In this document: positions 1 to 44,772 of the stretch, piece by piece | Position numbering within the stretch: position 1 is the first letter of the stretch | Layout of the letters: each line of letters opens with the position of its first letter | Assembly: GCF_031583025.1 (NCBI RefSeq) | Contig: NZ_CP134062.1 | Span: forward strand, 4,030,001-4,094,000 | Direction: 5' to 3' | DNA: 64,000 bases | Source: Mycobacterium sp. Z3061 | GTDB taxonomy: Bacteria > Actinomycetota > Actinomycetes > Mycobacteriales > Mycobacteriaceae | Position numbers and translations under genes: made by a program | Notes under the pieces: model-generated | Database searches by the model: none | Told to the model about the DNA's origin: nothing | What the model saw: only the letters and a program-made list of their open reading frames with translations

Positions 1-122
1 GAATACTACGCAGCGTAGACCACACCGCTTCCCCGGGCGACTGCCTGGTCACCGCGACCCGCCGGGCGCCGCGCGGACGGCGACCCGACATGGTCTTCCG
101 GACTGCGGCATACTGGGGCGCC

Positions 123-2108: not shown

Positions 2109-2126
2109 CGAGTCGAGCTCTGACGA
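2097..2126 (+). repeat. 15-bp tandem duplication over the asnB stop codon
   Basis: The 15-mer gtcgagctctgacga occurs twice head to tail (2097-2111 and 2112-2126). The first copy contains the asnB stop codon TGA at 2106-2108; the second repeats the last codons and stop just downstream. It looks like a recent slippage duplication without coding effect. The second copy runs into the left arm of the terminator palindrome. Confidence 0.9.
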
Positions 2127-2181
2127 GCAGACGCAAAATCGCCCGGGAGCATATGCTCCCGGGCGATTTTGCGTCTGCTCG
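2124..2181. terminator. 58-bp perfect palindrome, probable bidirectional terminator
   Basis: Two perfectly complementary 29-nt arms meet at 2152/2153 with no spacer. Each arm has a GC core (cgcccgggagcat) and an AAAA/TTTT tract followed by gcgtctgctcg. It lies between convergent asnB and adoK, so it can terminate both transcripts. There is no long U-tract on either side; the T run sits inside the stem. The terminator role is inferred from position and stem strength. Confidence 0.75.
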
Positions 2182-2187
2182 CGAGAC

Positions 2188-3183
<996 letters not shown>

Positions 3184-3351
3184 TCAGTCGTCTAGCCTCT
3201 CACGAACGTCAGCCGACGCCGAACGCTGCCGACGTTCGAGGCGGCCCGCTCCCCTTGCGCTAGCCTGCCTAGAGACTCACCCGGTTGCCGCGGCTGGACA
3301 TTCGTACGGCAACCCGCTCGTCGCCTCGTCCCCCAGCGTAGGAGAACAACG

Positions 3352-4017
3352 ATGGCCGGTCCGCACCCACCGAACCCTGCCGTGGGTGCCGATGGGCCTC
3401 AACCATCGCGGCCGTATCCCAAAGCCGGGCCCAACGCAACCGTGGACTTCCCGCACACCGAACCGGCCTTCGGGCCCGGCAACGCCGCAGGACCGCCGGC
3501 CGGTTACCCCGGTCCCCAGCCCCGCCCGAAGCGAGGGCACAAGCGCCTGCTGATCGGAGTGCTGCTGGCGGTAGCCCTGGTGGCCGCGCTGACCACCGCC
3601 ATCGTGTACGGGGTGCGCACCAACGGCGCCAACACCGGCAGCGCGGTCTCGGAGACCTCGGCCAAGACGGCGGTCCAGAGCTACCTCAACGCGCTGGCGC
3701 ACAAAGACCTCGACAACATCATGCGAAACACGCTGTGCGGCCTCTATGACGCCGTAAAGGACAAGCGCTCCGACCAGGCATTGGCCAAACTCAGCAGCGA
3801 CGCGTTCCGCAAACAGTTCTCCGAGGTCGAGGTGACGGCGATTGACAAAATCGTCTACCTCTCGCAGTACCAGGCTCAGGTGCTGTTCAGCATGCAGGTG
3901 ACGCCGGCCGCCGGGGGGCCGTCACGCGGGCAGGTCCAAGGCATCGCCCAGCTGTTGTTCCAGCGTGGGCAGATCCTGGTGTGTTCCTACGTGCTGCGCA
4001 CCGCCGGTCAGTACTGA
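3352..4017 (+). CDS. Membrane-anchored protein, Rv2203-like
   Basis: A 221-aa protein of unknown function. The N-terminal 60 or so residues are Pro/Gly-rich and low complexity, followed by one transmembrane segment (about residues 64-86, LLIGVLLAVALVAALTTAI). The C-terminal part of about 130 residues would lie outside the membrane and resembles an NTF2/DUF4878-like fold often found after a single TM in actinobacteria. The ATG at 3352 has an AGGAG about 7 nt upstream. It sits where Rv2203 does in M. tuberculosis and converges on the Fe-S carrier gene with only 4 bp between stops. The fold assignment is an inference. Confidence 0.85.
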   Translation: MAGPHPPNPAVGADGPQPSRPYPKAGPNATVDFPHTEPAFGPGNAAGPPAGYPGPQPRPKRGHKRLLIGVLLAVALVAALTTAIVYGVRTNGANTGSAVSETSAKTAVQSYLNALAHKDLDNIMRNTLCGLYDAVKDKRSDQALAKLSSDAFRKQFSEVEVTAIDKIVYLSQYQAQVLFSMQVTPAAGGPSRGQVQGIAQLLFQRGQILVCSYVLRTAGQY

Positions 4018-4021
4018 CCGA

Positions 4022-4378
4022 TCAGTTGAACGAGTCCCCGCACGCGCACGAACCGGTGGCGTTGGGGTTGTCGATGGTGAAGCCCTGCTTCTCGATCGTG
4101 TCGACGAAGTCGATCGACGCACCTTCGACATAGGGGGCGCTCATCCGGTCCACCGTCAGCGTCACACCGCCGAATTCCACGGTCAGGTCGCCGTCCAGGG
4201 TGCGGTCGTCGAAGAACAGGTTGTAACGCAGGCCGGCACATCCGCCCGGTTGCACGGCGATCCGCAGTGCCAGGTCGACGCGTCCCTCCTGGTCCAGCAG
4301 GGACTTCGCCTTCGCAGCGGCGGCCTCGGTCAGGATCACGCCGTGCGTCGAGGTGGTCGGCTCGTTCTGCACCGTCAT
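4022..4378 (-). CDS. erpA: A-type iron-sulfur carrier protein (HesB/IscA/ErpA family)
   Basis: Transfers Fe-S clusters to apo-proteins. The 118-aa protein, the same length as Rv2204c, has the three family cysteines: Cys47 in QPGGCAGLRY and the C-terminal pair Cys111 and Cys113 in SCACGDSF. The whole protein is one HesB-like domain. Client enzymes in the window that need 4Fe-4S clusters include LipA. The gene is convergent with the Rv2203-like gene and has its own ATG start with a purine-rich leader. The symbol erpA follows usage for the Rv2204c family; whether it is strictly ErpA or another A-type carrier cannot be settled from sequence alone. Confidence 0.9.
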   Translation of the reverse strand: MTVQNEPTTSTHGVILTEAAAAKAKSLLDQEGRVDLALRIAVQPGGCAGLRYNLFFDDRTLDGDLTVEFGGVTLTVDRMSAPYVEGASIDFVDTIEKQGFTIDNPNATGSCACGDSFN

Positions 4379-4455
4379 TGCTTCTCCTACATGCTCATTG
4401 TCCGGGTGGGCCTGTCCAGCTGTGATTCTGGGGCCTGCTCAAGGAACCCACTACG

Positions 4456-5532
4456 TCAACGGTACCCCGGCGGGCCGCTATTCCCGAGTCGCGCCGCAGT
4501 CTCCGAGGCCAGTCCCATCAGCTGATTGGCCGCGTCAGCCAGTGCCAGCCGCACCGAACCTGCGTATTCGCTCATGGCCAGGGCGGACATGATGCCGGAC
4601 ACGCGCGTGGTGGACTTGTCCACCGACACCTGCCCGGCCAGCACGATCACCGGGATACCGAGGTGGCGGGCGGCGGCCGCGATCTCGCCGACCACTTTCC
4701 CGTGTAGTGACTGCTCGTCGAAGTGGCCCTCACCGGTGACGATCATGTCCGCGTCTTCCAGGTCATCGCCGAAGTTGGTCAGTTCGGCGAAGATGGCCGC
4801 GCCGGATTCACACCGGCCGCCCAGCGCCAGCAGGCCGGCCCCGATCCCACCGGCGGCACCCGCGCCGGGCTCGGCACTCACGTCCCGTCCGGCGACGGTG
4901 TCCAGCACCTGCGCCCAAGCCTCGAGCCGTTCTTCCAGCTTGGCGACCGTCGCCGCATCGGCGCCCTTCTGCGGCGCGAACACCCGGGCCGCGCCCCACG
5001 GCCCCAGCAGCGGATATTCCACGTCCGAGGCGGCGATCAGCTCGATCCCCGACATCCACTGGCGGGCCGTGTCCAGGCCACCCAGTTCGTGGATCATCCC
5101 TTGACCCCCGTCGGTGCAGGCGCTGCCGCCCAACCCGACCACGATGCGCACGGCGCCCGCCTTCAGAGCGGCGGCGATGAGTTGACCGACGCCCCTGCTG
5201 TGCGCGGCCATCGCGGTCTCGGGCGTCGGCGGGCCCTCCAGCAGCGCCAGACCGCAGGCCTGTGCGCATTCCAGGTACGCCGTCCGGGACCGCTCGTCGT
5301 ACACCCACCGGGCATTGACCTCGGTGTCCAGCGGCCCGGACACGCGCAGCCGCCGCAGTCCCCCGATCCGGCTGGCCAGCACCTCGACGAACCCGGGTCC
5401 GCCGTCGGATTGCGGCGCGACGATGAAGGAGTCACCGGGCCGGGACCGGGTCCAGCCGGTCGCGATCGCGGCGGCCGCCTCTACCGCGGACAGGCTGTCG
5501 CCGTAGCAGTCCGGAGCCACCAGCACCCGCAT
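4456..5532 (-). CDS. Glycerate kinase
   Basis: Phosphorylates D-glycerate using ATP (GckA/GlxK family). From the start [16 protein letters not shown] it is 358 aa, equal to Rv2205c. Family blocks are clear: [11 protein letters not shown] near residue 40, [15 protein letters not shown] (nucleotide-binding loop), [15 protein letters not shown] and [17 protein letters not shown] longer start at 5601 (MNGAQAGGG) is open but adds a low-complexity Gly/Ala leader not seen in the family. No convincing ribosome binding site precedes either start. It is divergent from the Rv2206-like gene. Confidence 0.9.
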
Positions 5533-5690
5533 CGCAGGCAGCTGCAGCCTGCCGGGCCCGAAGCCACCGGCAGCACCACCCCCCGCCTGCGCCCCGTTCA
5601 TCACTGGCCAGCGTAGGTGTACACGCAGTTCGCCGTACGCAATACAGCCGCAATTAAGCAGGCTCACACAAGCGAAGTAACCTGACGACT

Positions 5691-6365
5691 GTGAAGCTGC
5701 TGGGCCGCAACAAGGGTCATGACGAGGGTGACGACGCTCCGGCCACGCCGGAGCCGAGTTCCGTGGCGGCCGAGACGGCGGCCCGTGGGGCGCGGACCGG
5801 CCCCAAGGGCCGTCCCACGCCCAAGCGCAGCGAGGCTCGCGGCAGGAAGGGGCCGGTTGCGCCGGCGCCGATGACAGCATCGGAGGCGCGGGCCCGGCGC
5901 AAGTCGATGGCCAAAGCGAAGCTCAGCCGCGAGGAACGCCGCGCCGATCGCACCGCCAGCCGCGCCCGGATGTCGGAGCGCCGGGAACGGATGATGGCCG
6001 GCGAGGAGGGATACCTGCTGCCGCGCGATCAGGGGCCGGTCCGCCGTTACGTCCGCGACGTGGTGGACGCCCGACGCAATGTGCTCGGCCTGTTCATGCC
6101 CTCGGCCCTGGCGTTGCTCGCCTTCATGTTCGCGTTGCCTCAGCTGCAGTTCTACATGTCCCCGATCATGCTGGCGCTGATGGCGCTGATGACCATCGAC
6201 GGGATCATCCTGGGTCGCAAGGTGGGCCGGCTGGTGGACGCGAAGTTCCCGAAGAACACCGAAAGTCATTGGAAGCTGGGCATTTACGCCGCTGGACGCG
6301 CCTCCCAGATGCGCCGGATGCGCGCTCCCCGGCCTCAGGTCGAGCGTGGCGCCCATGTCGAATGA
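5691..6365 (+). CDS. DUF3043-family membrane protein, Rv2206-like
   Basis: A 224-aa protein of unknown function starting at GTG 5691. The N-terminal half is highly basic and charged ([15 protein letters not shown]; many Arg/Lys), with [20 protein letters not shown] before the membrane part. Two transmembrane helices follow (about residues 126-145 and 150-170, [16 protein letters not shown]). A short basic tail ends the protein. Its position matches Rv2206. It lies 14 bp upstream of cobU on the same strand and so may be cotranscribed with the cobamide genes, though no functional link is known. Confidence 0.87.
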
Positions 6366-6379
6366 CCCGTTGATCTGAC

Positions 6380-6913
6380 GTGCGCACGCTGGTACTCGGC
6401 GGCATCAGGTCGGGCAAGTCCCGGTGGGCGGAGGACGCAATCGCAACCGCGCTGGCACCAGATCAGCCGGTCCGTTACCTGGCCGCCGGGCCGCTGGACC
6501 GGGCCGACCCGGAATGGATGGCGCGGATCGCCAAGCACCGCGACCGTCGTCCCGGGCACTGGACGACGCAGGAAACCGGTGATGTGGCCCGCGTGCTGCA
6601 GCAGCCGCCCGCCGTACCGACCCTGGTCGACGACCTGGGCACCTGGCTGACCGGGGCGCTGGATCGAAATCACGGCTGGGACGGCGGCTCGGTGGACGAA
6701 CCGGTGTCGCGGCTGCTGGGCGCGGTGCGCGCGTTCGAGTCGACGCTGATGCTGGTCAGTCCGGAGGTGGGGCTGACCGTCGTGCCGGCCACCGCAGCCG
6801 GGCGCCGGTTCGCCGACGAGCTCGGCAGTCTCAACCAGCGGGTGGCGGCACTGTGCGAGCAGGTGGTACTGGTGGTCGCCGGGCAACCCCTGACGATCAA
6901 GGCACCGGCGTGA
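6380..6913 (+). CDS. cobU: Adenosylcobinamide kinase / cobinamide-phosphate guanylyltransferase
   Basis: Bifunctional enzyme that phosphorylates adenosylcobinamide and transfers GMP to give adenosyl-GDP-cobinamide. The 177-aa protein opens with [19 protein letters not shown], carrying the P-loop GGIRSGKS, followed by RYLAAGP, both typical of CobU. The active-site His is probably within the segment [12 protein letters not shown]. Start GTG at 6380. The stop TGA overlaps the cobT start in GTGA, so translation is coupled. In M. tuberculosis cobU lies elsewhere (Rv0254c), so this arrangement differs from the reference block. Confidence 0.93.
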
Positions 6914-7974
6914 CCGGGTTCGCGCCGGTGCCGGCGCCCGACGCGGACGCCGGGGCCGCGGCCCGTGCCCGTCAGGACACCCTGACCAAGCCACGCGGCG
7001 CGCTGGGCCGGCTGGAGGATCTGTCGGTGTGGGTCGCGGCCTGCCAGGGGCAGTGCCCGCCCCGCCAGTTCGACCGGGCACGGGTGGTGGTCTTCGCCGG
7101 TGACCACGGTGTGGCCAGGTCCGGGGTCTCGGCGTACCCACCGGAGGTGACCGCGCAGATGGTCGTCAACATCACCGCCGGCGGAGCTGCGATCAACGCG
7201 CTGGCTGACGTCGCCGGTGTGACGGTACGGGTGGTCGACCTGGCCGTGGACTGCGAAGACCAGGCAGATTCGGTGAGCGACAAGATCCGCCGCGGCAGCG
7301 GCGACATCGCGGTCGAGGACGCGCTGTCCGACGAGGAGACGGCGAGGGCTGTCGCCGCCGGTCAGCAGATCGCCGACGAGGAGGTCGACGCCGGCGCCGA
7401 CCTGCTCATCGCCGGGGACATGGGCATCGGCAACACCACCCCGGCCGCGGTCCTGGTGGCCGCGCTGACGAACACCGAACCGGTCGCGGTGATCGGCTTC
7501 GGGACCGGAATCGACGACGCCGCGTGGTCGCGCAAAACCGCTGTGGTCCGCGATGCGCTGTACCGGGCGCAGCCGATCGCCGGTGACCCGGTGGCGCTGC
7601 TGCGCTGCTGCGGCGGCGCGGACTTCGCGGCGATGGCCGGCTTCTGCGCGCAGGCCGCCGTCCGGCGTACGCCGGTGCTGCTGGACGGCATGGCGGTGAC
7701 GGCCGCGGCGCTGGTCGCCGAACGGCTGGCACCGGGCGCGCGGCAATGGTGGCAGGCCGGCCACCGGTCCACCGAGCCAGGCCACACGCTGGCGCTGGCG
7801 GCGCTGGAATTGGAGCCGATAGTGGACCTGCGCATGCGGTTGGGCGAGGGCACCGGCGCCGTGGTGGCATTGCCGGTGCTGCGGGCCGCGGTGGCCACCT
7901 TGTCCTCGATGTCGACGTTCGCCGAGGCCGGAGTGTCGGGCGCGATCACCCCGCCGGACCCCGCCACCTCGTGA
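6910..7974 (+). CDS. cobT: Nicotinate-nucleotide:dimethylbenzimidazole phosphoribosyltransferase
   Basis: Makes alpha-ribazole 5'-phosphate, the lower-ligand donor of cobamides, from nicotinate mononucleotide and 5,6-dimethylbenzimidazole. Start GTG 6910 overlaps the cobU stop by 4 nt; an in-frame upstream start would extend into cobU and is not needed. The 354-aa product has the family blocks [28 protein letters not shown] and [15 protein letters not shown]. The catalytic Glu is probably in the C-terminal [24 protein letters not shown] (Glu-Gly-Thr-Gly). Length is near the 361 aa of Rv2207. It ends in a second GTGA overlap with cobS. Confidence 0.95.
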
Positions 7975-8711
7975 TCCGGTCACTGGCAACAGCTTTCGCC
8001 TTCGGCACGGTGCTGCCGGTCCCCCACTCGCAGACCGGCCCGATGGGTCGCGGCGCCCTGACCGCGCTACCGGTGGTCGGCGCCGCGCTCGGCGTGCTGG
8101 CGGCCGCCGTGACGTGGGGCGCCGCGGCGGCGTTCGGTCACTCCAGCGTGCTGCCGGGACTGCTCGCCGTGGCCGCCCTGCTGCTGGCCACCCGCGGCCT
8201 GCACATTGACGGTGTGGCGGACACGGCCGACGGGCTGGGTTGCTACGGACCGCCGCAGCGGGCGATGGCGGTGATGCGCGACGGTTCGTCCGGCCCGTTC
8301 GGGGTCGCGGCCGTCGTCCTGGTGATCGCCCTGCAGGGCGCCGCGTTCACGGCGCTGAGCCCGCCGGCGATCGTGCTGGCGGTTTTCGCCGGCCGGGTCA
8401 GCGCGGTGCTGGCCGGCCGGCGCTCGGTCCCGGCGGGCGACGGCAGCACGTTGGGCGTCCAGGTCGCCGGGTCCCAGCCCACCGCGGTCGTGGCGGCCTG
8501 GTTGGTCGTCCTGCTCGCCGTCTCGGTGCCGGCCGGCCCGCGGCCCTGGCAGGGACCGGTCGCCGTGGCGGTGGCGGTGTGCTGCGGCGCGGTGCTGGTG
8601 CGGCATTGTGTGCGCCGGTTCGGCGGCATCACCGGCGATGTGCTGGGTGCCGCCATCGAGCTGACGACGACGGTGTGCGCGGTGACGCTGGCCGGGTTGG
8701 TGCGCCTCTGA
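7971..8711 (+). CDS. cobS: Adenosylcobinamide-GDP ribazoletransferase (cobalamin-5'-phosphate synthase)
   Basis: Integral membrane enzyme joining adenosyl-GDP-cobinamide with alpha-ribazole (phosphate). Start GTG 7971 overlaps the cobT stop by 4 nt; product 246 aa against 249 in Rv2208. N-terminal [10 protein letters not shown] and the metal-binding [14 protein letters not shown] motif near residues 80-95 are diagnostic, followed by [10 protein letters not shown]. Several hydrophobic helices are visible along the length. It is the last gene of the cobU-cobT-cobS operon and converges on ilvE across a strong inverted repeat. Confidence 0.94.
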
Positions 8712-8731
8712 CGTCGGGGCCGCTCGCGCCG

Positions 8732-8783
8732 AGCGTGAAGCTGGCTTCACGTTCGTGCGCCAGCGTGAAGCCAGCTTCACGCT
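8732..8783. terminator. Inverted repeat between cobS and ilvE, probable bidirectional terminator
   Basis: A 20-nt arm (8732-8751, agcgtgaagctggcttcacg) and its perfect reverse complement (8764-8783) flank a 12-nt spacer. Each arm is itself a near-palindrome (cgtgaagc..gcttcacg), so alternative small hairpins are possible. It is located between convergent genes. No U-tract follows. The nested architecture also fits a short interspersed repeat. Confidence 0.65.
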
Positions 8784-26495: not shown

Positions 26496-26878
26496 TAAGC
26501 GCCGCATCTCGAGAACAGCCCGGCAATTCGGGTGATTTGAATTCAATAGGCCGCGCCTGGCTGAAATGCGGCAGCTCGGTCCGGTTTCTGCATCGGTGCC
26601 AGTGCTGCTCGGGCGCCTAAACCGCGCTGCCAGCATGTTCCGCGCGGTTCGGATAATGATCGCTTTGTAAAGCCGATTTACAATGGCTGCGGAAAATTGC
26701 TATATCTGCCTTTCTGTATAACCGCTTCACATTGACGCCGCTGTTAAAAGATTTCTTTATAACGTTTTGATAAACATGTGTGAATCGCGTCATAATTCCC
26801 CGTACGTTTGCGCCTGATATTTCGGGCAATTCGAAGCGACTCGTCGGTGAGCCGGGTCTCGGCGGTGGGAGGACAGCA
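26496..26878. other. AT-rich intergenic leader upstream of a PE_PGRS gene
   Basis: About 380 bp without a supported gene. Base composition is clearly more AT-rich than the neighbours, above all 26640-26800 (ataatgatcgctttgtaaag, gattTCTTTATAACG). Several TATAAC/TATAAT-like hexamers occur there, for instance gtataac near 26718 and tataacg near 26758, either of which could be a -10 element. A short GC hairpin (cccggcaattcggg) follows the upstream gene and may help termination. AT-rich leaders of this kind are the usual targets of nucleoid proteins such as Lsr2 and EspR; that is inference. Confidence 0.55.
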
Positions 26879-29210
26879 GTGTCGTTTGTGATCGTGTCGA
26901 CGGAGACTGTGGCAGCGGCGGCGTCGAATCTGGCGGGCATCGGGTCGGCTGTCAGCGCGGCGAACTACGCGGCGGCCAGTTCGACGACGGAACTGTTGGC
27001 CGCAGGCGCCGACGAGGTGTCGGCCGCCGTCGCGGCGCTGTTCAACGGGCACGGCGAGACGTACCGCGCCGTCAGCGCCCAGGCGACGGCATTCCACGAC
27101 GAGTTCGTGCGGATCCTGACCGCGGGCGGTGTCTCCTACGCCAGCGCAGATGCGGTCAACGCGACACTGCAGACGATCGAGCAGAACCTGCTTGGCGCGA
27201 TCAACGCCCCCACTCAGACACTGCTCGGCCGCCCGCTGGTCGGCAACGGCGCCAACGGGTTGCCCGGCACCGGCCAGAACGGCGGAGCCGGCGGCCTGCT
27301 GTTCGGGAACGGGGGTAATGGCGGATCCGGAGCGGCTGGTCAGAACGGGGGTGGCGGCGGAGCCGCCGGGCTGTTCGGCAACGGTGGCGCCGGCGGCGCC
27401 GGCGGAACCGGCGCAAACGGCGGCGCCGGAGGCACTGGCGGGTGGCTGTACGGCAACGGCGGATCCGGCGGAATCGGCGGGCTCGGCCTGCCCGGGGCCG
27501 GCGGCGCGGGCGGCGCAGGCGGCAACGCGACCGGACTCATCGGGACCGGCGGTGCCGGCGGAACCGGCGGACTCGGCAACGTCGGTGGCGCCGGTGGCCG
27601 CGGCGGCAGCGGCGGGGTGCTGTTCGGTGTCGGCGGCAATGGCGGGGCCGGCGGAGTGGGCGCCGGCGGCGTCGGCGGGGCCGGCGGGGCCGGCGGCGAC
27701 GTCTTCGGGCTCATAGGCAACGGCGGTGCCGGCGGCTATGGCGGCCAGACCGCCGACGGGGCCGCAGCGGCACCCGCCGGCGGCAACGGCGGCACCGGCG
27801 GGTGGCTCTTCGGCAACGGCGGGGCCGGTGGCGCCGGCGGATACAACATCTTCGGGGGCCCGGGTGGCGCCGGCGGCGCCGGCGGCAATGTGCTCGGCCT
27901 CATCGGCGACGGCGGGGCCGGTGGCGCCGGTGGGTACACCACGACTGGCATTGCCGGGGCGGGAGGCGCCGGCGGCGGCAGCGGACACCTGCTGGGCAAC
28001 GGCGGAAGCGGCGGCAACGGCGGCATGGCGACCGCAGCCGGAGGCACCGGCGGGGCCGGCGGCGCCGGCGGCAACGCGCTCACCGTCATCGGCAACGGCG
28101 GGTCCGGCGGACTGGGCGGCAACGGTGTCGCCGGCAGCGGCGGAGCCGGGGGCAACGGCGGCAACGGCGGTCTGGTGATCGGCTTCGGCGGTAACGGCGC
28201 GGCCGGCGGCCTGGGCGCCGCGGGAATCGGTGGAGCCGGGGGCAACGGCGGCAACGCCATCGGCCTGATCGGCGACGGCGGCGCCGGCGGCGTCGGCGGA
28301 CAGAGCGCTTCCGCGCTCGCCCAGGCGGCGGCCGGCGGCAGTGGCGGCACCGGTGGCCTGCTGTTCGGCAACGGCGGAGCCGGTGCGGCCGGCGGGTACA
28401 ACACCCTCGGCGGCGCGGGCGGCGCCGGCGGTCGCGGCGGCAGTGTGCTGGGGCTCATCGGCGACGGCGGAGCGGGCGGCGCCGGCGGGGCCACCACCAC
28501 CGAACCGGTGGCACCGGCGGCGGCGGACGGCAGCGGGCGCCTGTTCGGCAATGGCGGCCTGGCCGGCAACGGTGGCACCGCTACCAGCCCCGGTGGCACC
28601 GGCGGGGCAGGCGGGGCAGGCGGGAACTCGGTCGCGCTGGTCGGCAACGGCGGAGCCGGCGGGGTCGGCGGCTACGGCGTCTTCGGCAGCGGCGGTGCCG
28701 GTGGTACCGGCGGCACCAGCGGTCTGCTCTTCGGCTTCGGCGGCAACGGCGGACTCGGCGGACTCGCGGGCGGTGCGGCTGGTGTCGGTGGCGCCGGCGG
28801 CAACGGCGGCAGCGGTCGGGCTCATCGGCAACGGCGGCAACGGCGGGCTGGGCGGCTTCGGTTTCACCGGCGGGGCGCACGGCGGTGACGGCGGCAACGG
28901 CGGCACGCTGTGGGGCAATGGCGGTGATGGTGGCGGCGGCGGCCAGCTCGGTGGTGCCGGCGGCAACGGCGGCAACGCCGGGATGTGGTTCGGCAACGGC
29001 GGGGCCGGCGGTGACGGTTTTGCCGGCGACGCCGGCGTCATCAAGGGCGGCAATGGCGGCAACGGCGGCCGCGCCGCCTCCGGCATCGGTTTCGGCGGCA
29101 ACGGCGGCAGCGGTGGCCTCAACGCGGGCGCCGGTGGCGGCACCGGGGGTGCCGGCGGCCAGGGCAGCGCGCTGGCCGGCACCGCCGGCAGCGCCGGAGC
29201 CAACGGCTGA
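26879..29210 (+). pseudogene. PE_PGRS family protein, frameshifted near 28,810
   Basis: GTG 26879 with GGGAGGA upstream opens a PE domain of about 95 residues ([20 protein letters not shown]..., YASADAVN carrying the YxxxD secretion motif of ESX-5 substrates), the linker [13 protein letters not shown], then Gly-Gly-Ala/Gly-Gly-Asn PGRS repeats. The repeat frame runs in the start frame to about 28,810. From there the glycine-rich reading continues in the next frame ([17 protein letters not shown] to GSAGANG, stop 29208-29210), while the original frame degenerates to Arg-rich sequence and stops at 28888. So the gene needs a single net shift to be intact: either a genuine frameshift mutation or an assembly/sequencing error in a repetitive GC tract. 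Confidence 0.85.
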
Positions 29211-29864: not shown

Positions 29865-31301
29865 GTGACGGATAAGACGCCCGACGACGTCTTCAAACTT
29901 GCCAAAGACGAAAACGTCGAGTTTGTCGACGTCCGTTTCTGCGACCTGCCCGGCATCATGCAGCACTTCACCATTCCGATCTCGTTCTTCGACGAGAGCG
30001 TGTTCGAAGACGGCCTGGCCTTTGACGGGTCGTCGATCCGTGGTTTCCAGTCGATCCACGAGTCCGACATGCTGCTGCTGCCGGACCCGGAAACCGCGCA
30101 GGTCGACCTGTTCACCCAGGCCAAGACGCTGAACCTGAACTTCTTCGTGCACGACCCCTTCACCCTCGAGCCCTACTCCCGCGACCCGCGCAACGTCGCC
30201 CGCAAGGCCGAGAACTACCTGATCAGCACCGGCATCGCCGACACCGCGTACTTCGGTGCCGAGGCCGAGTTCTACATCTTCGACTCGGTGGCCTTCGACT
30301 CGCGCACCAACGGCTCGTTCTACGAGGTCGACGCGATCTCCGGCTGGTGGAACACCGGCTCGGCGACCGAGGCCGACGGCAGCCCCAACCGCGGGTACAA
30401 GGTGCGCCCCAAGGGCGGCTACTTCCCGGTGGCCCCCGTCGACCACTACGTCGACCTGCGCAGCAAGATGTTGCAGAACCTGATCGCGGCCGGCTTCAGC
30501 CTGGAGAAGGGCCACCACGAGGTGGGCACCGGCGGGCAGGCCGAGATCAACTACAAGTTCAACACGCTGCTGCACGCGGCGGACGACATGCAGCTGTACA
30601 AGTACATCGTCAAGAACACCGCGTGGGCCAACGGCAAGACCGTCACGTTCATGCCCAAGCCGCTGTTCGGTGACAACGGGTCCGGCATGCACACCCACCA
30701 GTCGCTGTGGAAGGACGGCAGCCCGCTGATGTACGACGAGACCGGCTACGCCGGCCTGTCGGACACCGCCCGCCACTACATCGGCGGCCTGCTGCACCAC
30801 GCCCCGTCGCTGCTGGCGTTCACCAACCCGACGGTGAACTCCTACAAGCGTCTGGTGCCCGGCTACGAGGCTCCGATCAACCTGGTCTACAGCCAGCGCA
30901 ACCGGTCGGCGTGCGTGCGTATCCCGATCACCGGCAGCAACCCGAAGGCCAAGCGCCTGGAGTTCCGCTGCCCCGACTCCTCGGGTAACCCGTACCTGGC
31001 GTTCGCGGCGATGTTGATGGCCGGCCTGGACGGCATCAAGAACAAGATCGAGCCGCAGGCGCCGGTGGACAAGGACCTTTACGAGCTGCCCCCGGAGGAG
31101 GCTGCGAACATCCCGCAGGCACCGGTTCAGCTGTCCGCGGTGATCGACAAGCTCGAGGAGGACCACGAGTACCTCACCGAGGGTGGCGTGTTCACGCCCG
31201 ACCTGATCGAGACGTGGATCAACTTCAAGCGGGAAAACGAGATCCTGCCGGTCCAGATCCGGCCTCACCCGTACGAGTTTGCGCTGTACTACGACGTTTA
31301 A
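29865..31301 (+). CDS. glnA1: Glutamine synthetase type I
   Basis: Condenses glutamate and ammonia to glutamine. 478 aa, same length as GlnA1 of M. tuberculosis (Rv2220). Start GTG 29865 with AAAGGAG 7 nt upstream. Visible motifs: [20 protein letters not shown], the ATP-binding [25 protein letters not shown] and the adenylylation loop [10 protein letters not shown] with Tyr406, the residue modified by GlnE. Upstream lie tandem GlnR-like boxes; downstream a strong hairpin ends the transcript. The enzyme is the dodecameric, adenylylation-regulated form. glnE, its regulator, is about 10.5 kb further on instead of adjacent. Confidence 0.97.
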
Positions 31302-31418: not shown

Positions 31419-34091
31419 GTGTCACCGGCGGCTGCTCCCTCGGGGGTGGTGACTTTTCTTTTTACCGACGTGGAGGGCTCCACACGTCGGTGGGAGGCCG
31501 ACGCCGACGCGATGCGGGCCGCTCTGGCCGCCCACGACGAGGTGTTGCGCGGGGCGATCGAGGCGCACGGCGGCTTCCTGTTCAAGCACACCGGTGACGG
31601 CGTGTGCGCGGCCTTCGCCTCGCCCCGCGCGGCCGTGGATGCCGCGGTAGCGGCACAACTCCAGCTGGAGTTGCCGGTGCGGATGGGCTTGGCGACCGGC
31701 GAAGCCGAACTGCGGCAGGCTGATTACTTCGGGACGGTACTCAACCGTGCGGCCAGGGTGATGGCCGCCGGTCATGGCGGTCAAATCCTGCTGGCCGAGT
31801 CGACGGCAGGTCTGCTGAGCGGAGTGGATCTGCTCGATCGAGGGCCGCGACGGTTGCGCGACGTCCCCGTGCCGGTCGGGGTGTTCCAGGTTCGGGCCGC
31901 GGGTCTGCGCACGGAGTTTCCGCCATTGCGGGCGCTCGATACGAGTCCGGGAAACCTGCGGTCTGTCGGCACCCGGTTGGTCGGCCGCGGCGCCGAGGTG
32001 GCCGCGATCGAGGCGGCGGTCAAGACGCACCGGGTGGTGACGCTGACCGGCGTGGGCGGAGTCGGTAAGACGCGCCTCGCGGTGGACGTCGCGACACACC
32101 TGGCCGAGGCGTTCCCGGACGGGGTCTGGCTTTTCGAGCTGGCCGCGGTCACCGATCCGGTGGCGGTACCCGATGCGGTGGCGTCCGTGCTCGGCATCAC
32201 CCAGCAACCGGGTAAGAGCGTCACCGAGTCGGTGGCCGACGCGTTGGAGGGGCGGATCCGGTTGCTGGTCTTCGACAACTGCGAGCACGTTCTCGACGCC
32301 GCCGCCGACCTGATCGAAGCCATACTCGCCGTTTCGGCGACGATACGAATCCTCGCCACCAGCCGCGAAGGCCTCGGAGTCCCCGACGAGCAGGTGTTGC
32401 CGGTGCGCCCCCTGGACACCGCAGCGGGACTCCAGTCGGCGGCGGTGACCCTGTTCGTCGAACGTGCGCGAAGCATCGCGTCGGACTTCTCGATGGCCGA
32501 CCCCGGCGAGGCCGCCGCGGTGAGTGAGATCTGCCGGCGCCTCGACGGCATTCCACTGGCCATCGAACTCGCGGCCTCCCGGATGGCGTCCATGACCGCC
32601 GGCGAGGTGCGTGACCGTCTCGACCACCGCTTCCAGCTGCTGGTCGGCTCCCGTCGGGGCCTGGAACGTCACCACACGCTGCGACACGCCGTGGCCTGGT
32701 CCTACGACCTTCTCGACGACGGCGAAAGGTCGGTGCTCAACCGCTGTTCGGTCTTCGCAGGCGGTTTCGACCTGCGCAGCGCCTGCGCGGTAGCCGGATC
32801 CGGCGACCTCGACGAGTACGCCGTTCTCGAGCTACTCGACGCGCTGGTGCGCAAGTCGCTGCTCATCGCTGACCACGCTGCTTCGCGCACCCGCTTCTCG
32901 ATGCTGGAGACGATCCGCCAGTTCGCCGAGGAACACCTGGTCGCCGGCGGAACGTCCGTCGAGATCCGGGCCGCCCACTCGAAGTATTTCGCTGGACGGG
33001 AAACCGACATCATGGCCGTGTGGGACAGCCCGAACCAGCGCGCGGCGTACGACTGGTTCACGGTCGAGCTGGCCAATCTGCGCACTGCCTTCCGGTGGGC
33101 CACCGAACACGGCGACCTGGACACGGCAGCTGCCATCGCGGCCTACGCGGCGCTGCTCGGCCCTTTCCTCGAGAACTACGAACCGATCACCTGGGCCGAA
33201 GAACTCGTCGCAAGACTACGCGACCTAGCCCATCCCCGACTCGCGGCGATCTGTGTGGGGGCATCGCTGTGCGTGCTCGTCGGACGCTTCGAAGATGCTG
33301 TGCGCTACAGCGAGATCGGCCAGCAGGTCATCGCGACCGCCGGCGACGCCGTCGCGTACTTCGGTGAGCCCTGGCTCGGCAGTGCGTATCTGTTTGTCGG
33401 CCGGCCCGACCGGTATGTGGAGCTGTGTCGCTCGCAGCTGGCACGTACCGGCGACGCGAACACATTCGCGAGAGCCAACCTGGTGTTCGCATTGGCCGCG
33501 GCCGGTTCGACGGACGAAGCGACAGTGGCCGCGACGGGCCTCATCGATGCCGCTGAAGCGACGGGCAATCCCTGGGTGCTGGCCTACGCGCTCTTCGCGT
33601 GGGGTTTTGCCTTCCGTGATATCGACTCGGGTCGCGCGATCGACGCGTTTCGCCGGGGCGTCCTCGTCTCGCACGACAGCGGTAACCGATTCTTCGAATC
33701 ACAATTCTCGTATTGGAGGTGCGGCGTCGAGGCCGAGCACGGGGACCCGGTGACGACGTTGGGCTACCTCGCCGTGGCCATCCGTACCAACCACGAATCC
33801 GGCAACATCGGCATGATGCACAACCCCATGGCCACCCTGGCCCTGGTTCTCGACCGGCTCGGACGCTACGAACCGGCGGCCACCATCGCCGGTTTCGCAG
33901 CGGGCAATCCCATGGTTGCGGTGTCCTTGCCCGAGCTCGCGGCGCTGACCAGACATCTACGCGAGCTCCTCGGTGAACAAGCCTTCGAATCGCTCGCCCG
34001 GACGGGTGAACTGATGACCGTCACCGCCATGGTGACTTACGCCTGCGACCAAATCGACCAGGTGCGAAGAGAACTCGAACACGGCACCTGA
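31419..34091 (+). CDS. Adenylate cyclase-STAND ATPase signalling protein
   Basis: 890 aa from GTG 31419. An N-terminal class III cyclase domain keeps all key residues: metal Asp17 (FTDVEGST) and Asp60 (KHTGDGV), substrate-selecting Lys56, and Asn109/Arg113 (LNRAARVMA). A STAND/AAA-type NTPase follows, with P-loop LTGVGGVGKTRLA near residue 209, Walker B-like LLVFDNCEHVLDAA, and the RLDGIPLAIELAA sensor motif. The C-terminal 450 residues are helical repeats of TPR type. M. tuberculosis relatives (Rv1358, Rv2488c) usually end in a LuxR helix-turn-helix; none is visible here. It lies in the accessory segment between glnA1 and glnE. Confidence 0.9.
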   Translation: MSPAAAPSGVVTFLFTDVEGSTRRWEADADAMRAALAAHDEVLRGAIEAHGGFLFKHTGDGVCAAFASPRAAVDAAVAAQLQLELPVRMGLATGEAELRQADYFGTVLNRAARVMAAGHGGQILLAESTAGLLSGVDLLDRGPRRLRDVPVPVGVFQVRAAGLRTEFPPLRALDTSPGNLRSVGTRLVGRGAEVAAIEAAVKTHRVVTLTGVGGVGKTRLAVDVATHLAEAFPDGVWLFELAAVTDPVAVPDAVASVLGITQQPGKSVTESVADALEGRIRLLVFDNCEHVLDAAADLIEAILAVSATIRILATSREGLGVPDEQVLPVRPLDTAAGLQSAAVTLFVERARSIASDFSMADPGEAAAVSEICRRLDGIPLAIELAASRMASMTAGEVRDRLDHRFQLLVGSRRGLERHHTLRHAVAWSYDLLDDGERSVLNRCSVFAGGFDLRSACAVAGSGDLDEYAVLELLDALVRKSLLIADHAASRTRFSMLETIRQFAEEHLVAGGTSVEIRAAHSKYFAGRETDIMAVWDSPNQRAAYDWFTVELANLRTAFRWATEHGDLDTAAAIAAYAALLGPFLENYEPITWAEELVARLRDLAHPRLAAICVGASLCVLVGRFEDAVRYSEIGQQVIATAGDAVAYFGEPWLGSAYLFVGRPDRYVELCRSQLARTGDANTFARANLVFALAAAGSTDEATVAATGLIDAAEATGNPWVLAYALFAWGFAFRDIDSGRAIDAFRRGVLVSHDSGNRFFESQFSYWRCGVEAEHGDPVTTLGYLAVAIRTNHESGNIGMMHNPMATLALVLDRLGRYEPAATIAGFAAGNPMVAVSLPELAALTRHLRELLGEQAFESLARTGELMTVTAMVTYACDQIDQVRRELEHGT

Positions 34092-34212: not shown

Positions 34213-35802
34213 ATGACCGCCAGCCAACCCAACGCGCCGGACGTCGCGACGGCACACATCCCCTATCTGTGGACCGAGCCGCGTTCGCCGAGCGGCGCAG
34301 CGAACCCACTCATCGCCGGCGCCACCATTGCCAGCGGCCGGATCCGGCTGCTGCTGTTCTATGGCGAGTTGACGCACCTCCAGTTCTGGCAGGCGGCTGA
34401 CACGGTGACCGGGCAGCACCTGGCTGTCACCGTCGTCGACGCCGAGAACGCGCTGCCGACGGCGACCGTCGACGCAATCCTTTCCCGCACCGCACGTCTG
34501 CGCGGTATCGACTCACCGTCGGTGGCGACGGTGATCGACGTGGGCCGTGATTACTGCGGCGGTGTGGTGGTCTCGGAGTGGATTCGTGGCGCCACGCTGA
34601 AAGAGGTGGCCAACAGCGGTCCGTCGCCCATCGGGGTCGCCGACGCGGTGCTGTCGCTGGCCGAGGCGGCAGAAGCGGGTCACCGGGCGGGCCTGACATT
34701 GTCGATCGACCACCCTGCCCGGATCAGGGTCAGCCTCGACGGGCGCGCCGTCCTGGCCTTCCCGGCGACCTTGCCGGACGCGACTGCGCGCGATGATCTT
34801 CGGGGCATCGGCGCGGTGATGTATGCGCTGCTGCTCAACCGCTGGCCCTTCGAAAACCAAGCGGTGCGGAAGGATTGGCACAACGCCGAGACCGACGCCC
34901 GGGGCCGGATCCAGGAGCCGGCGGCTTTCGACCCGCGCATTCCGTTCCTCGTGTCGTCCACTGCGACAGCCCTGGTCCGCGATGGCGAGAACATTCGCAG
35001 CGCCAAGACCATTACGACGTTGCTGCGCGAGGCGAGCGGGGAGGCGAAGAACTCCGCGGATCCGCACCGAACCCGTGAGCTGCCCGCTCTGCCGCCCCCC
35101 GGCCAGTACGCCGCCTTCCGCAATTTCGGACCCGCGGAGCGGGCCGAGTACGCGCGCCGTCAGCTCGTCAAGACATGTCTGGGAAGTGCGGCGGCAGTGG
35201 TCCTGGTCCTGCTGACCACCTTTGCGACGACGATCAGCCACGTGGTCGGCACCTTCGACACCAAGGTGGCGATGAACGGCGACAAGCTCGGACTTCAGCC
35301 GGCTGCGACCTCACCGAGTCCGTCGCTGGTGGCCGCCAATCCCGCAACGGTCAAGGTGCTCCGAGCCGCGGTATTCTCGCCGGGCGGTGCGCCGGACAAC
35401 CCCGGCTCGGCCGGACTGGCGATCGACGGTGACCCCGGCACCGCCTGGTCGACCGACACCTACTTCGACCCCGCACCGTTCCCGAAGTTCAAGGACGGTG
35501 TGGGACTCCTGTTGCAGCTGGCCGAGCCCACGTCGCTGAGCGCGGTCGCCGTCGACCTGAACAGCTCCGGCACGGTGGTGCAGATCCGGGCATCAGCAAG
35601 CGCGACGCCGGCAAGACTCAGCGACACCACCGAACTCAGCGCGCCTGCCGCGTTGCCACCCGGCCATCATGTGATCCCCGTAACATCCTCTACGCCAACA
35701 ACTTTCGTGGTTTTCTGGATCAGCACCCTGGGCACCACCGGCGGGAAGAGCCATTCCGAAATTTCCGAGTTGACACTGCAGAGCGCAGTACAGTTCAGGT
35801 AA
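34213..35802 (+). CDS. MurJ-C-terminal-like pseudokinase with TM and discoidin-type domain
   Basis: 529 aa from ATG 34213. Residues about 30-290 form a degenerate kinase: no Gly-rich loop, Val-Thr-Val in place of the VAIK Lys (HLAVTVVDAEN), and SIDHPARIRV and AVLAFPA where HRD and DFG belong, while the scaffold EWIRGATLKEVA, DDLRGIGAVMYALLLNRWP remains. One TM helix spans about residues 321-345. The outer part (AIDGDPGTAWSTDTYFDP, GVGLLLQLAEPT, STLGTTGGKSHSEISELTLQ) is a discoidin-like fold. The same order and similar sequence form the C-terminal half of mycobacterial MurJ/MviN (Rv3910), whose pseudokinase binds FhaA. No flippase helices precede it here. Topology and role are inferred. Confidence 0.85.
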   Translation: MTASQPNAPDVATAHIPYLWTEPRSPSGAANPLIAGATIASGRIRLLLFYGELTHLQFWQAADTVTGQHLAVTVVDAENALPTATVDAILSRTARLRGIDSPSVATVIDVGRDYCGGVVVSEWIRGATLKEVANSGPSPIGVADAVLSLAEAAEAGHRAGLTLSIDHPARIRVSLDGRAVLAFPATLPDATARDDLRGIGAVMYALLLNRWPFENQAVRKDWHNAETDARGRIQEPAAFDPRIPFLVSSTATALVRDGENIRSAKTITTLLREASGEAKNSADPHRTRELPALPPPGQYAAFRNFGPAERAEYARRQLVKTCLGSAAAVVLVLLTTFATTISHVVGTFDTKVAMNGDKLGLQPAATSPSPSLVAANPATVKVLRAAVFSPGGAPDNPGSAGLAIDGDPGTAWSTDTYFDPAPFPKFKDGVGLLLQLAEPTSLSAVAVDLNSSGTVVQIRASASATPARLSDTTELSAPAALPPGHHVIPVTSSTPTTFVVFWISTLGTTGGKSHSEISELTLQSAVQFR

Positions 35803-35859
35803 GGGCGCCGGCGACCAGTGGGTCGCCACAGCCCAAGCGCGGCTGGAACGGACCTGCGG

Positions 35860-36777
35860 ATGCCTGAGGAAGTCTTCTTCGAATCCGGCGGCGTGTGCTG
35901 CGCCGCTGATTTCTACCCCCCGGATTCCGACGACGTACTGGTGCCTTGCGTAGTGATGGGACACGGTGGAAGCGGGACCAAGCGCCTGGGACTGCCGAAG
36001 TACGCCGAACGGTTCGCCGCGGCCGGTTTGGCGGTCTTGGCGTTCGACTACCGCGGCTTCGGCGCCAGCGCGGGCGAACCCCGGCAGGTCATCAGCTGCG
36101 CCGGGCAGCACGATGACTATCGGGCGGCGCTGCGCTATGTGCGGAGCCGTTCCGGCATCGACCCACAGCGGATCGCCTTATGGGGTACCTCCCTCAGCGG
36201 CGGCCATGTCCTGGCGGTGGCCGCTGAGGATCCGGCCGTAGCTGCTGTGGTCGCGCAAGTGCCCCTGATCGACGGCTGGCATCGTGGCCGTGGGTTACGC
36301 GAGCGACTCCACTGGGACATAGCCTGGCGCACCGCGCAATTCACCGCGGCGGCGCTGCGGGATGTGATTCACGAACGGGCCGGATGGGCACCCTACCTGG
36401 TGCCGGTGGTCGCCGAACCCGGCCGTATCGCGGTGTTCACCGAGCCGGACGCCAAAGCAGCGTTCGAGGCACTCGGCGGCGAATCCACCGGCTGGCGAAA
36501 CGCTTTGGCGCCTCGGATGATCTTCGACCTACCTCGCTATCGCAAAGGCACCGCGGAAGCCCTGCACATGCCGGTGCTGATGTGTCTCGCCGATAGAGAC
36601 TTGCAGACCTCGGCCTCGTTTGCCGCCAAAGTGTCAACGCGCATGCCGAACGTGGAGATCCATCACTACCCGGTCGGGCACTTCGACGTCTACCTCGGAT
36701 CGAGGTTTGACGAAATCACCTCCGCCCAAACCGAATTCCTGTGCAGGAAGCTGCTGACCAACAGCGCCGCCGGATAG
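35860..36777 (+). CDS. Alpha/beta hydrolase
   Basis: 305 aa from ATG 35860; a GTG at 35818 would add 14 residues without homology-like content. Features: oxyanion-hole block VVMGHGGSGTKRLGL, FDYRGFGASAGEPR, the nucleophile elbow GTSLSGGH, acid residue in LMCLADRDLQTSAS and His in YPVGHFDVY. This is the dienelactone-hydrolase/serine aminopeptidase S33-like pattern often annotated as alpha/beta fold hydrolase; substrate unknown. It follows the pseudokinase gene by about 57 bp on the same strand, and its 3' end abuts the stop of an opposed small membrane gene. Confidence 0.85.
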   Translation: MPEEVFFESGGVCCAADFYPPDSDDVLVPCVVMGHGGSGTKRLGLPKYAERFAAAGLAVLAFDYRGFGASAGEPRQVISCAGQHDDYRAALRYVRSRSGIDPQRIALWGTSLSGGHVLAVAAEDPAVAAVVAQVPLIDGWHRGRGLRERLHWDIAWRTAQFTAAALRDVIHERAGWAPYLVPVVAEPGRIAVFTEPDAKAAFEALGGESTGWRNALAPRMIFDLPRYRKGTAEALHMPVLMCLADRDLQTSASFAAKVSTRMPNVEIHHYPVGHFDVYLGSRFDEITSAQTEFLCRKLLTNSAAG

Positions 36778-41147: not shown

Positions 41148-41794
41148 TGTCCGTTCCCGCCGTCGCGCGCCCAGGCCGGTTCGATGAAGACTCCCTCGGA
41201 TTCGACCGTGATCCCCTCGGCATCCGAAATGAACCCGCGCGCAAACACTTTGACGCCCTCCCTGCGGTCTATCCAGGCCTCGGAGCGCAGCGGTCCGAGC
41301 GGGGTGCCGCGCAGGTACTTCACCGTGATCGTTCCGGTGAACCGCGCCTTGGAGAGCCCCTCACTGGCCGCCTCGCCGAGCATGTGGTCGAGCACCAGCG
41401 CACTGACGCCGCCGTGCACCAGCTTCGGCGGACCCTCGTACGCCGAGCCGAGCATGAAGTCGGCCCAGCACCGTCCGCCGTCGTGGTGCACGACCAGGGG
41501 CGGGGCGATCGGATTGCACACGCCGACAACAGCGTTGCCCAGCGGCAGGGGACGGCCGTCGACGCGATAGCTCACCCCGACGGGCCGGGTGCGTTGCCGC
41601 AGCGACTCGGTGACGCTCTGGATCGCGGCTCGTGCCTGCGCGACCACAACGTCGTCGACCTCGGTGCGGACGGTCGCGTCGATCAGGTCGCGGACGGCGT
41701 CGGCGAGCGGTGCGTACAGGGCGGTCACCCGGTCAGCTTCGGGCGCGCTCAACACTTCGAACAGGGCGCCCAGCGCACCGGCATCCTGAGTCAA
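41144..41794 (-). CDS. PaaI-type hot-dog thioesterase
   Basis: 216 aa from TTG 41794, which overlaps the glnE stop (TTGA) by 4 nt. The C-terminal half is a hot-dog domain: [31 protein letters not shown] with the HGG motif and the Asp/His environment of acyl-CoA thioesterases, then [24 protein letters not shown]. The N-terminal 90 residues are helical and not recognised. It probably hydrolyses an acyl-CoA. Confidence 0.82.
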
Positions 41795-44772
41795 CTTCCG
41801 AACACCTTGCGCACCACAGCTTTCGCCCGCCTTGTCACCCGCAGATAGTTGTCCAGGAATTCCCCACCGTCGTCGTTGTGCCAGCCCGCCGCGACGGCGA
41901 CCGCGTTGAGTTGGCGCCCCGGCCCGGGCAACTGGTCGGTGGGCTTACCGCGGACCAGCACCAGCGCATTGCGGGCCCGGGTCGCGGTCAGCCATGCCTG
42001 GCGCAGCAGGTCGACCTCCTCCTGGTCGGCCAGTCCCGTTTCGGCGATGACGTCCAGCGACTCGAGTGTCGAGGTGTTGTGCAGGGCCTGGATCTCGTGG
42101 GCGTGCCGTAGCTGTAGCAACTGCACAGTCCATTCGATATCGGCCAGCCCCCCGCGTCCGAGCTTGGTGTGGGTGTTGGGGTCGGCGCCCCGTGGCAGCC
42201 GCTCGGACTCGATGCGCGCTTTGATGCGGCGGATCTCCTGCACGGCTTCGGCCGAGACGCCGTCGGGCGGATAGCGGGTCTTGTCGATGGTCAGCAGGAA
42301 GCGCTGACCCAGCACCGGGTCACCGGCCACCGCGTGCGCGCGCAGCAGCGCCTGGATCTCCCACGGTTGCGCCCACTGCGTGTAGTACGCCTCGTAGGAG
42401 GCCAGGGTGCGGACCAGCGGACCGTTGCGCCCCTCGGGGCGCAGATTGGCGTCCACCTCCAGCGGCGGATCGACACTGGGCTGCCCCAGCTGCTTTCGGA
42501 CCTGCTCGGCGATGGTGTTCGCCCATTTCACCGCCTGGGAGTCGGTGGCGCCGTTGGCCGTCTCGCAGACGAACATCACGTCGGCATCCGAGCCATAGCC
42601 CAGCTCGGCGCCACCGAGGCGGCCCATCCCGATCACGGCGATGACCGCGGGGGCACGCCCGTCCCCGGGAAGATTGGCCCGGATCGTCGCATCCAGGGCG
42701 GCCTGCAGAACCGCCACCCAGATCGAGGTGAGCGCGGCGCACACGTCGGTGACCTCGAGCATGCCCAGCAGGTCGGCGGATCCGACGCGGGCCAGTTCGC
42801 GACGGCGCAGGGTGCGCGCGGCGGCGATGGCCCGGGCGGGATCGGCGTGGCGGCCCGCCGAGGCGACCAGTGCCCGCGCCACCGCTGCGGGTTCGGCCTC
42901 CAGCAGCATGGGCCCGCTCGGGCGGTCGCCGTAGTTCTGGATGACCTCGGGTGCGCGCATCAGCAGGTCCGGCACGTAGGCCGAGGTGCCGAGCACATGC
43001 ATGAGGCGCTTGCCTACCGTCGGCTTGTCGCGCAGCGTCGCCAGGTACCAGCTCTGGGAGGACAGCGCCTCACTGAGGCGCCGGTAGGCCAACAGACCGG
43101 TGTCGGGATCCGGTGCATAGGACAGCCAGTCCAGCAGTCGCGGCAGCAGCACCGACTGCACCCGGCCACGCCGGCCACTCTGATTGACCAGCGCGGACAT
43201 GTGCTTCAGCGCCGTCTGCGGGCCCTCGTAACCGAGCGCGGCCAGCTGTCGCTCCGCCGCCTCCGAGGTCATGCGACCGCCGACGATCTCCAGCCCGGCG
43301 GGGCCGACGGACTCCAGCAGCGGCTGGTAGAACAGCTTGGCGTGCAACCGGGACACCCGGACGTTCTGGTGTTTGAGCTCCTCGCGCAGCACCCCGGCCG
43401 CGTCGTGGCGGCCGTCGGGCCGGATGTGGGCGGCTCGGGCCAGCCAGCGCACCGCCTCATCGTCGTCCGGCTCGGGCAGCAGGTGGGTGCGCTTGAGGCG
43501 CTGCAGCTGCAGCCGATGCTCGAGCAGACGCAGGAATTCGTAGGAGGCGATCATGTTCGCCGCATCCTCGCGCCCGATGTAACCGCCCTCGCCTAACGCG
43601 GCCAGCGCATCGACCGTCGACGCGACATGCAGTGACTCGTCACCGCGTCCATGCACCAGCTGCAGCAACTGCGCGGCGAACTCCACGTCGCGCAGGCCGC
43701 CGCTACCTAGTTTGAGTTCGCGGCCGCGGATGTCGGCGGGCACCAGTTGCTCCACCCGGCGCCGCATGGCCTGCACCTCGGTGACGAAATCCTCACGCTC
43801 GCAAGCCGTCCACACCATCGGCGTCAGCGCCTCGAGGTAACGCCGGCCCAGTTCGGCGTCACCCACCGCGGCGCGCGCCTTCATCAGCGCCTGGAACTCC
43901 CACGTCTTCGCCCAACGCTGGTAGTAGGCGACGTGCGATTCGACCGTCCGGACCAGCTCCCCATGGCGTCCCTCGGGGCGCAGCGCGGCGTCCACCTCGA
44001 AAAACGCCGACGATGCCAACCGCATCATCTCGCTGGCCACCCTGGTGGTGATGGCGTCGGCGCGCTCCCCGACGAAGATCACGTCGACGTCGCTGACGTA
44101 GTTCAGTTCGCGCGCACCGCATTTGCCCATCGCGATGACGGCCAGTCGCGGCGGGGTGCGGTCGCCGCACACCGACTCCTCGGCCACCCGCAACGCCGCC
44201 GCCAGAGCGGCGTCCGCAGTGTCCGCCAGCTGGGCGCCGACAGTGGCGAAGGGCAACACCGGCTCGTCCTCGACCGTCGGAGCCAGATCGAGTGCGGCCA
44301 GCACCAGCAGCTGGTCGCGGTAGACCGCTTTCAGCCGGTGCACGATGGTGCCTGCGGCGCCCGAACATTCCTCCACGCAGCGCATGAAGGTCTGCTGCAA
44401 CTGCTCGCGGGTAGGCAGTTTGACCTTGCCCCGCAGCAACTTCCACGACTGTGGGTTGGCGATCAGGTGGTCCCCCAGGGCCAGGGATGACCCGAGCACG
44501 GCGAACAGGCGCCCGCGCAGGCTGCGTTCGGTGAGCAGTGCCGCGTTCAACTCACGCCAGCCGGCGTCAAGGCTCTCGGACAGCCGGACCAGCGCCCGCA
44601 GAGCGGCATCGGCATCCGGGGCGCGCGACAGGGCCCAGAGCAGGTCGACGTGCGCCTGGTCGTCGTGCTGATCCCAACCCAGCTGTGCGAGCCGGTCGCC
44701 GGCGGGTGGATCCATCAAGCCGAGCCGGCCGACGCTGGGCAACTTGGGTCGCTGCGTGGCGGGCTTGGTCAC
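41791..44772 (-). CDS. glnE: Bifunctional glutamine synthetase adenylyltransferase/deadenylase
   Basis: Adds and removes AMP on the regulatory Tyr of GlnA1. 993 aa (Rv2221c: 994), start GTG 44772. Two nucleotidyltransferase domains: N-terminal with [15 protein letters not shown] (deadenylylating half) and C-terminal with [15 protein letters not shown] (adenylylating half), both keeping the two metal-binding Asp residues, separated by a helical regulatory region. GlnE is essential in M. tuberculosis. It is transcribed away from glnA2 and heads the coupled thioesterase-LLM chain. Its target glnA1 has been separated from it by about 10.5 kb. Confidence 0.96.

Follow-up and report, generated by a model that had tools for sequence, protein, structure and literature searches.

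A stand-alone pseudokinase-transmembrane-outer-domain protein of Mycobacterium resembling the C-terminal half of MurJ

The closest described relative of the protein examined here is the C-terminal half of the mycobacterial flippase MurJ (Rv3910, MviN). As described in PMC10166564 and PMC12599244, the FHA domain of FhaA is recruited once PknB has phosphorylated Thr947, which lies behind the pseudokinase of MviN. PMC12599244 also describes an ATP pocket filled by F724 and W789, dimers of the MviN pseudokinase in solution with L750 and D793 named as interface residues, and a pseudokinase family, ActPs3, which is marked by a shortened activation loop and in many members of which a transmembrane (TM) segment lies C-terminal to the domain. 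The MurJ linker E541-F680 binds CwlM according to PMC6180346. The role of the pseudokinase and the outer domain of mycobacterial MurJ is debated, with FhaA as inhibitor or as promoter of peptidoglycan synthesis (PMC11898655). Among the matches listed in a search of the open-licence literature on MurJ/MviN, FhaA and pseudokinases, no title or abstract opening described the stand-alone protein analysed here.

We analysed a window of 64,000 nucleotides (positions 4030001-4094000) from the 6.79 Mb, single-contig genome of Mycobacterium sp. Z3061. An ORF on its plus strand (34213..35802) begins with ATG and runs without interruption over 529 aa. A first, sequence-only reading had judged by eye that this protein resembles the C-terminal half of MurJ and has no flippase helices, and both points were borne out. 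The alignment to Rv3910 is significant: its pseudokinase chains 3otv/3ouk, 3uqc and 3oun match residues 32-279 in an ungapped alignment (E 8e-75), and a phmmer search of solved structures (E 0.001) returned nothing besides Rv3910 pseudokinase chains. The resident MurJ, a 1214-aa open frame, lies at 6778210 of the same genome, and residues 25-525 are 49% identical to its C-terminal half (E 2.7e-138). Judged by these alignments, the ORF encodes a true paralogue of the C-terminal half of MurJ (Rv3910/MviN). The sequence-only reading had allowed for a frameshifted flippase domain upstream. We reject a MurJ that is split or frameshifted here, since the best match of two flippase queries in a tblastn search of the window reached E 0.041 over 73 aa. 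A flippase match is likewise absent from all 33 stand-alone ORFs that we found in named records. Among the matches listed, the closest named record at the gene is M. gordonae CTRI 14-8773, with 97% identity.

The pseudokinase domain covers residues 32-279 (34306..35049, plus strand) and is followed by a juxtamembrane part (residues about 280-325), a TM segment predicted from hydropathy at residues 327-345 (35191..35247, plus strand) and an outer discoidin/CBM-like domain at residues 385-525 (35365..35787, plus strand), assigned from alignments and a weak Pfam match to CBM_AftD. The predicted TM segment is the strongest hydrophobic 19-mer of the protein, with a mean of 2.02 against 1.33 for the runner-up. 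That the catalytic kinase motifs are lost, as the sequence-only reading had stated, was confirmed: the position of the VAIK lysine is T73 (T in 18 of the 19 stand-alone rows and S in one), and with the HRD and DFG aspartates absent as well, the protein lacks the hallmarks of an active Ser/Thr kinase. Residues F58, W123, D166, P168 and R170, on the other hand, are invariant in all 19 stand-alone and all 60 MurJ rows. With a numbering offset of +666 to Rv3910, F58 and W123 are the counterparts of F724 and W789, and Thr947 falls on the Thr of the A-D-R-T motif of MurJ; under the same numbering the positions of L750 and D793 are occupied by residues other than L and D. On the shortened activation loop of the ActPs3 family, the ungapped alignment to 3otv over residues 32-279 bears only indirectly. 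One open frame of 721 aa (L071, 8058-10223) extends some 240 residues ahead of the pseudokinase, with a Pro-rich beginning.

The presence of an outer domain, which had been called discoidin from the sequence alone, was upheld, while the discoidin identity is a fold-level guess because the Pfam matches remain below the cut-off. The 529-aa protein gave a single match, to CBM_AftD (E 0.0043; 17.1 bits, cut-off 27), and none above the cut-off. CBM_AftD was matched in 16 of 27 aligned members (E up to 1, best E 0.00028) and F5_F8_type_C in 5 of the 27 (best E 0.12). Among the best 60 of 72 profile-search matches no solved structure was found for the outer domain, as all of them lie in the pseudokinase part. 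Residues 379-525 are 57% identical to the outer domain of a Ser/Thr kinase encoded at 1894270 of the same genome (L003 1495-3291, C1:1894270), which has the catalytic motifs (Pkinase E 1.6e-40), and the pairing of a kinase with this outer domain recurs in 14 named records. The domain is found on MurJ, on a kinase and on the stand-alone protein, and thus in three settings within one genome.

The Thr947 column holds T in 42/42 MurJ rows of the first set and, with 18 rows from named records added and near-copies retained, in 60/60; the xDxT motif is present in all 60, and three of the 18 named-record rows deviate from the strict pattern with the Thr still kept. T is also found in 7/7 MurJ rows of other genera in a second alignment. 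A DRT-type site, in contrast, occurs in none of the 38 distinct stand-alone rows. The placement of the linker varies by alignment, and on one of them a single stand-alone row of 25 (G108) has T in the Thr947 column. Pseudokinases of other genera lack T in this column in 11 of 12 rows, the one that keeps it being L122. The CwlM-binding stretch E541-F680 lies N-terminal to the region common to MurJ and the stand-alone protein. The stand-alone family thus appears to have lost both protein contacts described for the inner region of MurJ, the FhaA site and the CwlM linker. It carries instead a juxtamembrane motif of its own, GxYAxF (residues 297-302; 35101..35118, plus strand), present in 38/38 stand-alone and 0/60 MurJ rows and extended as RNFGP in many stand-alone rows.

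Regarding the distribution, we scored seven candidates per genome in 198 evenly drawn Mycobacterium genomes. With E 1e-60 as the limit, 197 of them gave a match (the remaining genome is 72% complete), and 21 gave two or more, one of these genomes (G005) holding a contig-edge fragment. An open stand-alone frame is present in 19 of the 198, so that the occurrence in other mycobacteria, which the sequence-only reading had left to a survey, is patchy. Two of the 19 genomes (G000, that of the window, and G006) belong to one species, and in one (G066) the frame is N-terminally short (455 aa). A MurJ match is also present in all 19. In the last of the 21 genomes (G055, L079) we observed two extra MurJ-like copies with C-terminal halves broken across frames, and a 1210-aa MurJ elsewhere. 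The 68 loci from named records comprise 33 stand-alone ORFs, 18 MurJ with flippase, 14 kinases with the outer domain and three others, namely L191 with just the outer domain, L181 as a piece at a contig edge, and L199, a distant pseudokinase. Among the named species that carry the gene are M. gordonae, M. asiaticum, M. intermedium, M. manitobense and M. agri, and further M. tusciae, M. novocastrense, M. lehmannii, M. lacusdiani and M. iranicum; the scan was built on stand-alone patterns and therefore has no bearing on which species lack the gene.

In a tree of the 19 stand-alone proteins and 42 MurJ C-terminal halves the two groups fall on opposite sides of a branch supported at 100/100. A second tree of the pseudokinase domain only was calculated from 63 rows with other genera added (25 stand-alone, 19 of the 60 MurJ, 7 MurJ and 12 pseudokinases of other genera), with near-copies and several pseudokinase-only paralogues omitted. 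All 25 stand-alone rows form one clade (100/100) beside the mycobacterial MurJ, and together with 18 mycobacterial MurJ rows this clade is split from a Mycobacteroides MurJ and from the other genera at 100/98. Support for the mycobacterial MurJ clade itself is 83/47; the duplication may predate the sampled mycobacterial MurJ or fall within it. The 12 other-genus pseudokinases, which include the split MurJ of genus g2, fall outside the mycobacterial clade and imply a minimum of two label changes on starred branches; long branches meet among them, so we claim no exact number of origins. The tree does not support a descent of the mycobacterial clade from stand-alone proteins of other genera, though with long branches meeting there. 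Estimated by simple counting in nine pairs, dN/dS of the stand-alone protein lies at 0.10-0.38 over pseudokinase, linker plus TM and outer domain, and because of these values we regard the gene as kept by purifying selection. Compared with MurJ, dN/dS is higher for the pseudokinase in 9/9 pairs and lower for the outer domain in 3/9.

The surroundings of the gene vary. In the window it lies between what we take, by eye, to be glnA1 (29865-31301) and glnE (41791-44772), and in 9 of the 14 records of its subclade (13 fetched records and the window) it is found at the glnA1 locus. A glycine-rich, PE_PGRS-like protein, also named by eye, is encoded at 26780-28888. The upstream neighbour is a cyclase-STAND protein (31419..34091, plus strand, 890 aa), the downstream one an alpha/beta hydrolase (35818..36777, plus strand, 15 bp past the stop), which is a neighbour only. 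The sequence-only reading had placed the gene directly after the cyclase-STAND protein. This holds for the window, where that ORF is real and ends 121 bp before the pseudokinase ORF, and not for the subclade as a whole, as the two genes adjoin in 3 of the 14 subclade records (the window and two M. gordonae records). We therefore reject an obligate pairing as a general rule; the cyclase-STAND neighbour is lineage-specific. An anti-phage defence role was set aside: the PADLOC matches of the pseudokinase (PD-T4-6, best E 4.5e-10, residues 58-161) look like what any kinase fold would give, and those of the cyclase-STAND gene are weak. In a fast-grower subclade of 10 loci, picked by a downstream enoyl-CoA hydratase gene, the upstream side is visible in 9, and 6 of these have a Ser/Thr kinase gene with an HRDxKPxN motif as the immediate upstream neighbour in the same orientation; one example is L162 6625-7866, with its homologues. 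Within the 38 neighbourhoods, several of them cut by contig ends, a search that is blind to kinases with another spelling of the motif found no HRDxKPxN kinase beside the window's copy or in other subclades, except at L146, where three genes lie between. No neighbour is constant across the stand-alone family.

Taken together, we favour the reading that a free regulatory half of MurJ, derived from an old duplication within Mycobacterium, acts as a membrane-anchored, non-catalytic receptor that signals to a partner other than FhaA, and we give it a probability of roughly 0.55. The outer discoidin/CBM-like domain would bind a sugar of the cell envelope on the outside, if the membrane orientation is as we suppose, the pseudokinase with its filled ATP pocket would offer a docking and probably a dimerisation surface inside, and the output would pass through the conserved GxYAxF(RNFGP) stretch to the putative partner. 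An effect on cell-wall synthesis may follow. Several points count against this reading: the Pfam match that suggests the ligand class is below the cut-off, the patchy occurrence and changing neighbourhoods reveal no constant functional partner, T287 in the window's subclade may still serve as an FHA site, and the alignment of single linker residues is uncertain, with another Thr close by in some fast-grower copies. It is possible, though we lean against it, that the free pseudokinase pairs with that of MurJ, or shares its outer ligand, and so reduces the number of FhaA docking sites and relieves FhaA control in trans. The likeness of both domains to those of the resident MurJ, the MurJ match in every genome with an open stand-alone frame and the dimers reported for MviN in PMC12599244 would fit such pairing, yet the pseudokinase diverges faster than that of MurJ in all nine pairs. 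More doubtful is an inactive co-receptor tuning an active membrane Ser/Thr kinase that is encoded alongside or shares the outer domain; the upstream kinase genes of the fast-grower subclade point this way, as does the catalytic kinase of the window's genome that carries this outer domain, but beside the window's copy and in other subclades no HRDxKPxN kinase was found, save the more distant one at L146. These two nearest rivals, pairing with MurJ and action on a membrane kinase, may be two sides of the same thing.

The remaining alternatives appear weaker. The sequence-only reading had suggested that the protein could compete for or redirect FhaA and so be an accessory regulator of cell-wall synthesis. 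In that case PknB would phosphorylate T287 and FhaA would be drawn off MurJ. FHA domains may favour Leu at +3, and T287 of the sequence T-R-E-L (35071..35073, plus strand) is a candidate for a relocated phospho-Thr: of 13 rows examined from the window's subclade, 12 keep T-[RQ]-[EV]-L, an additional subclade record outside the pattern used to pick rows (L141) has T-R-R-L, and FhaA is encoded in the window's genome (FhaA_N). FHA docking could thus have been relocated to T287 in this subclade. The idea is nevertheless weakened, because the Thr947 site is kept in all 60 MurJ rows and its DRT-type form is missing from all 38 stand-alone rows; moreover, a protein 85% identical to that of the window, from M. 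gordonae DSM 44160, is without a Thr where T287 would be, and other subclades lack the site, although some fast-grower rows carry other linker Thr. We therefore consider FhaA competition unlikely. A decaying duplicate without function is highly improbable: the patchy distribution and the shortened frame of G066 would agree with decay, but the frame is open in 19 genomes, GxYAxF is invariant and specific to the family, and dN/dS well below 1 argues against it. Extending the receptor reading to other genera, we tentatively suggest that Mycobacteriales freed the regulatory half of MurJ more than once and mostly dropped FhaA docking (L122 keeps the Thr), and that the Mycobacterium copy gained GxYAxF as a docking motif for an envelope regulator. 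This would create a second, FhaA-independent branch that shares its outer ligand with MurJ and influences the synthesis of the cell wall in trans. Species with the stand-alone copy keep MurJ itself untouched beside it, and a natural separate copy with both domains and without the FhaA site lets the role of these domains be asked apart from flippase and FhaA.

Comparable stand-alone MurJ-type pseudokinases in other genera of Mycobacteriales likewise have no flippase in frame, and several have a TM segment and an outer domain, but they form separate lineages in the tree and share about 31-45% identity over the aligned part. One of them, L122 (G239), groups with the MurJ of its own genome. We also noted one genus in which single genomes (G243, G218, G259; L123-L129) hold several MurJ paralogues of pseudokinase-only or pseudokinase-TM type. 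In both genomes of genus g2 examined (G198, G228; L114, L115) a flippase gene is followed by a separate pseudokinase-TM-outer-domain gene; this split MurJ is likewise without the FhaA-type Thr and, unlike the stand-alone mycobacterial protein, adjoins its own flippase gene. With the Ser/Thr kinase L003 the protein has the outer domain in common, whereas the kinase domain is catalytic in L003 only. It shares with the ActPs3 family, as described in PMC12599244, the degraded VAIK, HRD and DFG motifs, the equivalents of F724 and W789 and the C-terminal TM segment; ActPs3 members other than MviN are presented there without a carbohydrate-binding domain, whereas the stand-alone protein has the homologous domain without the flippase. 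In comparison with full-length Rv3910 MurJ, the flippase, the CwlM-binding linker and the Thr947-type FhaA site are missing. With the C-terminal half of Rv3910 (PDB 3otv, 3ouk, 3oun, 3uqc) the protein shares the domain order of pseudokinase, TM segment and outer domain as well as the aromatic residues of the ATP pocket, and to these it adds its own GxYAxF motif.
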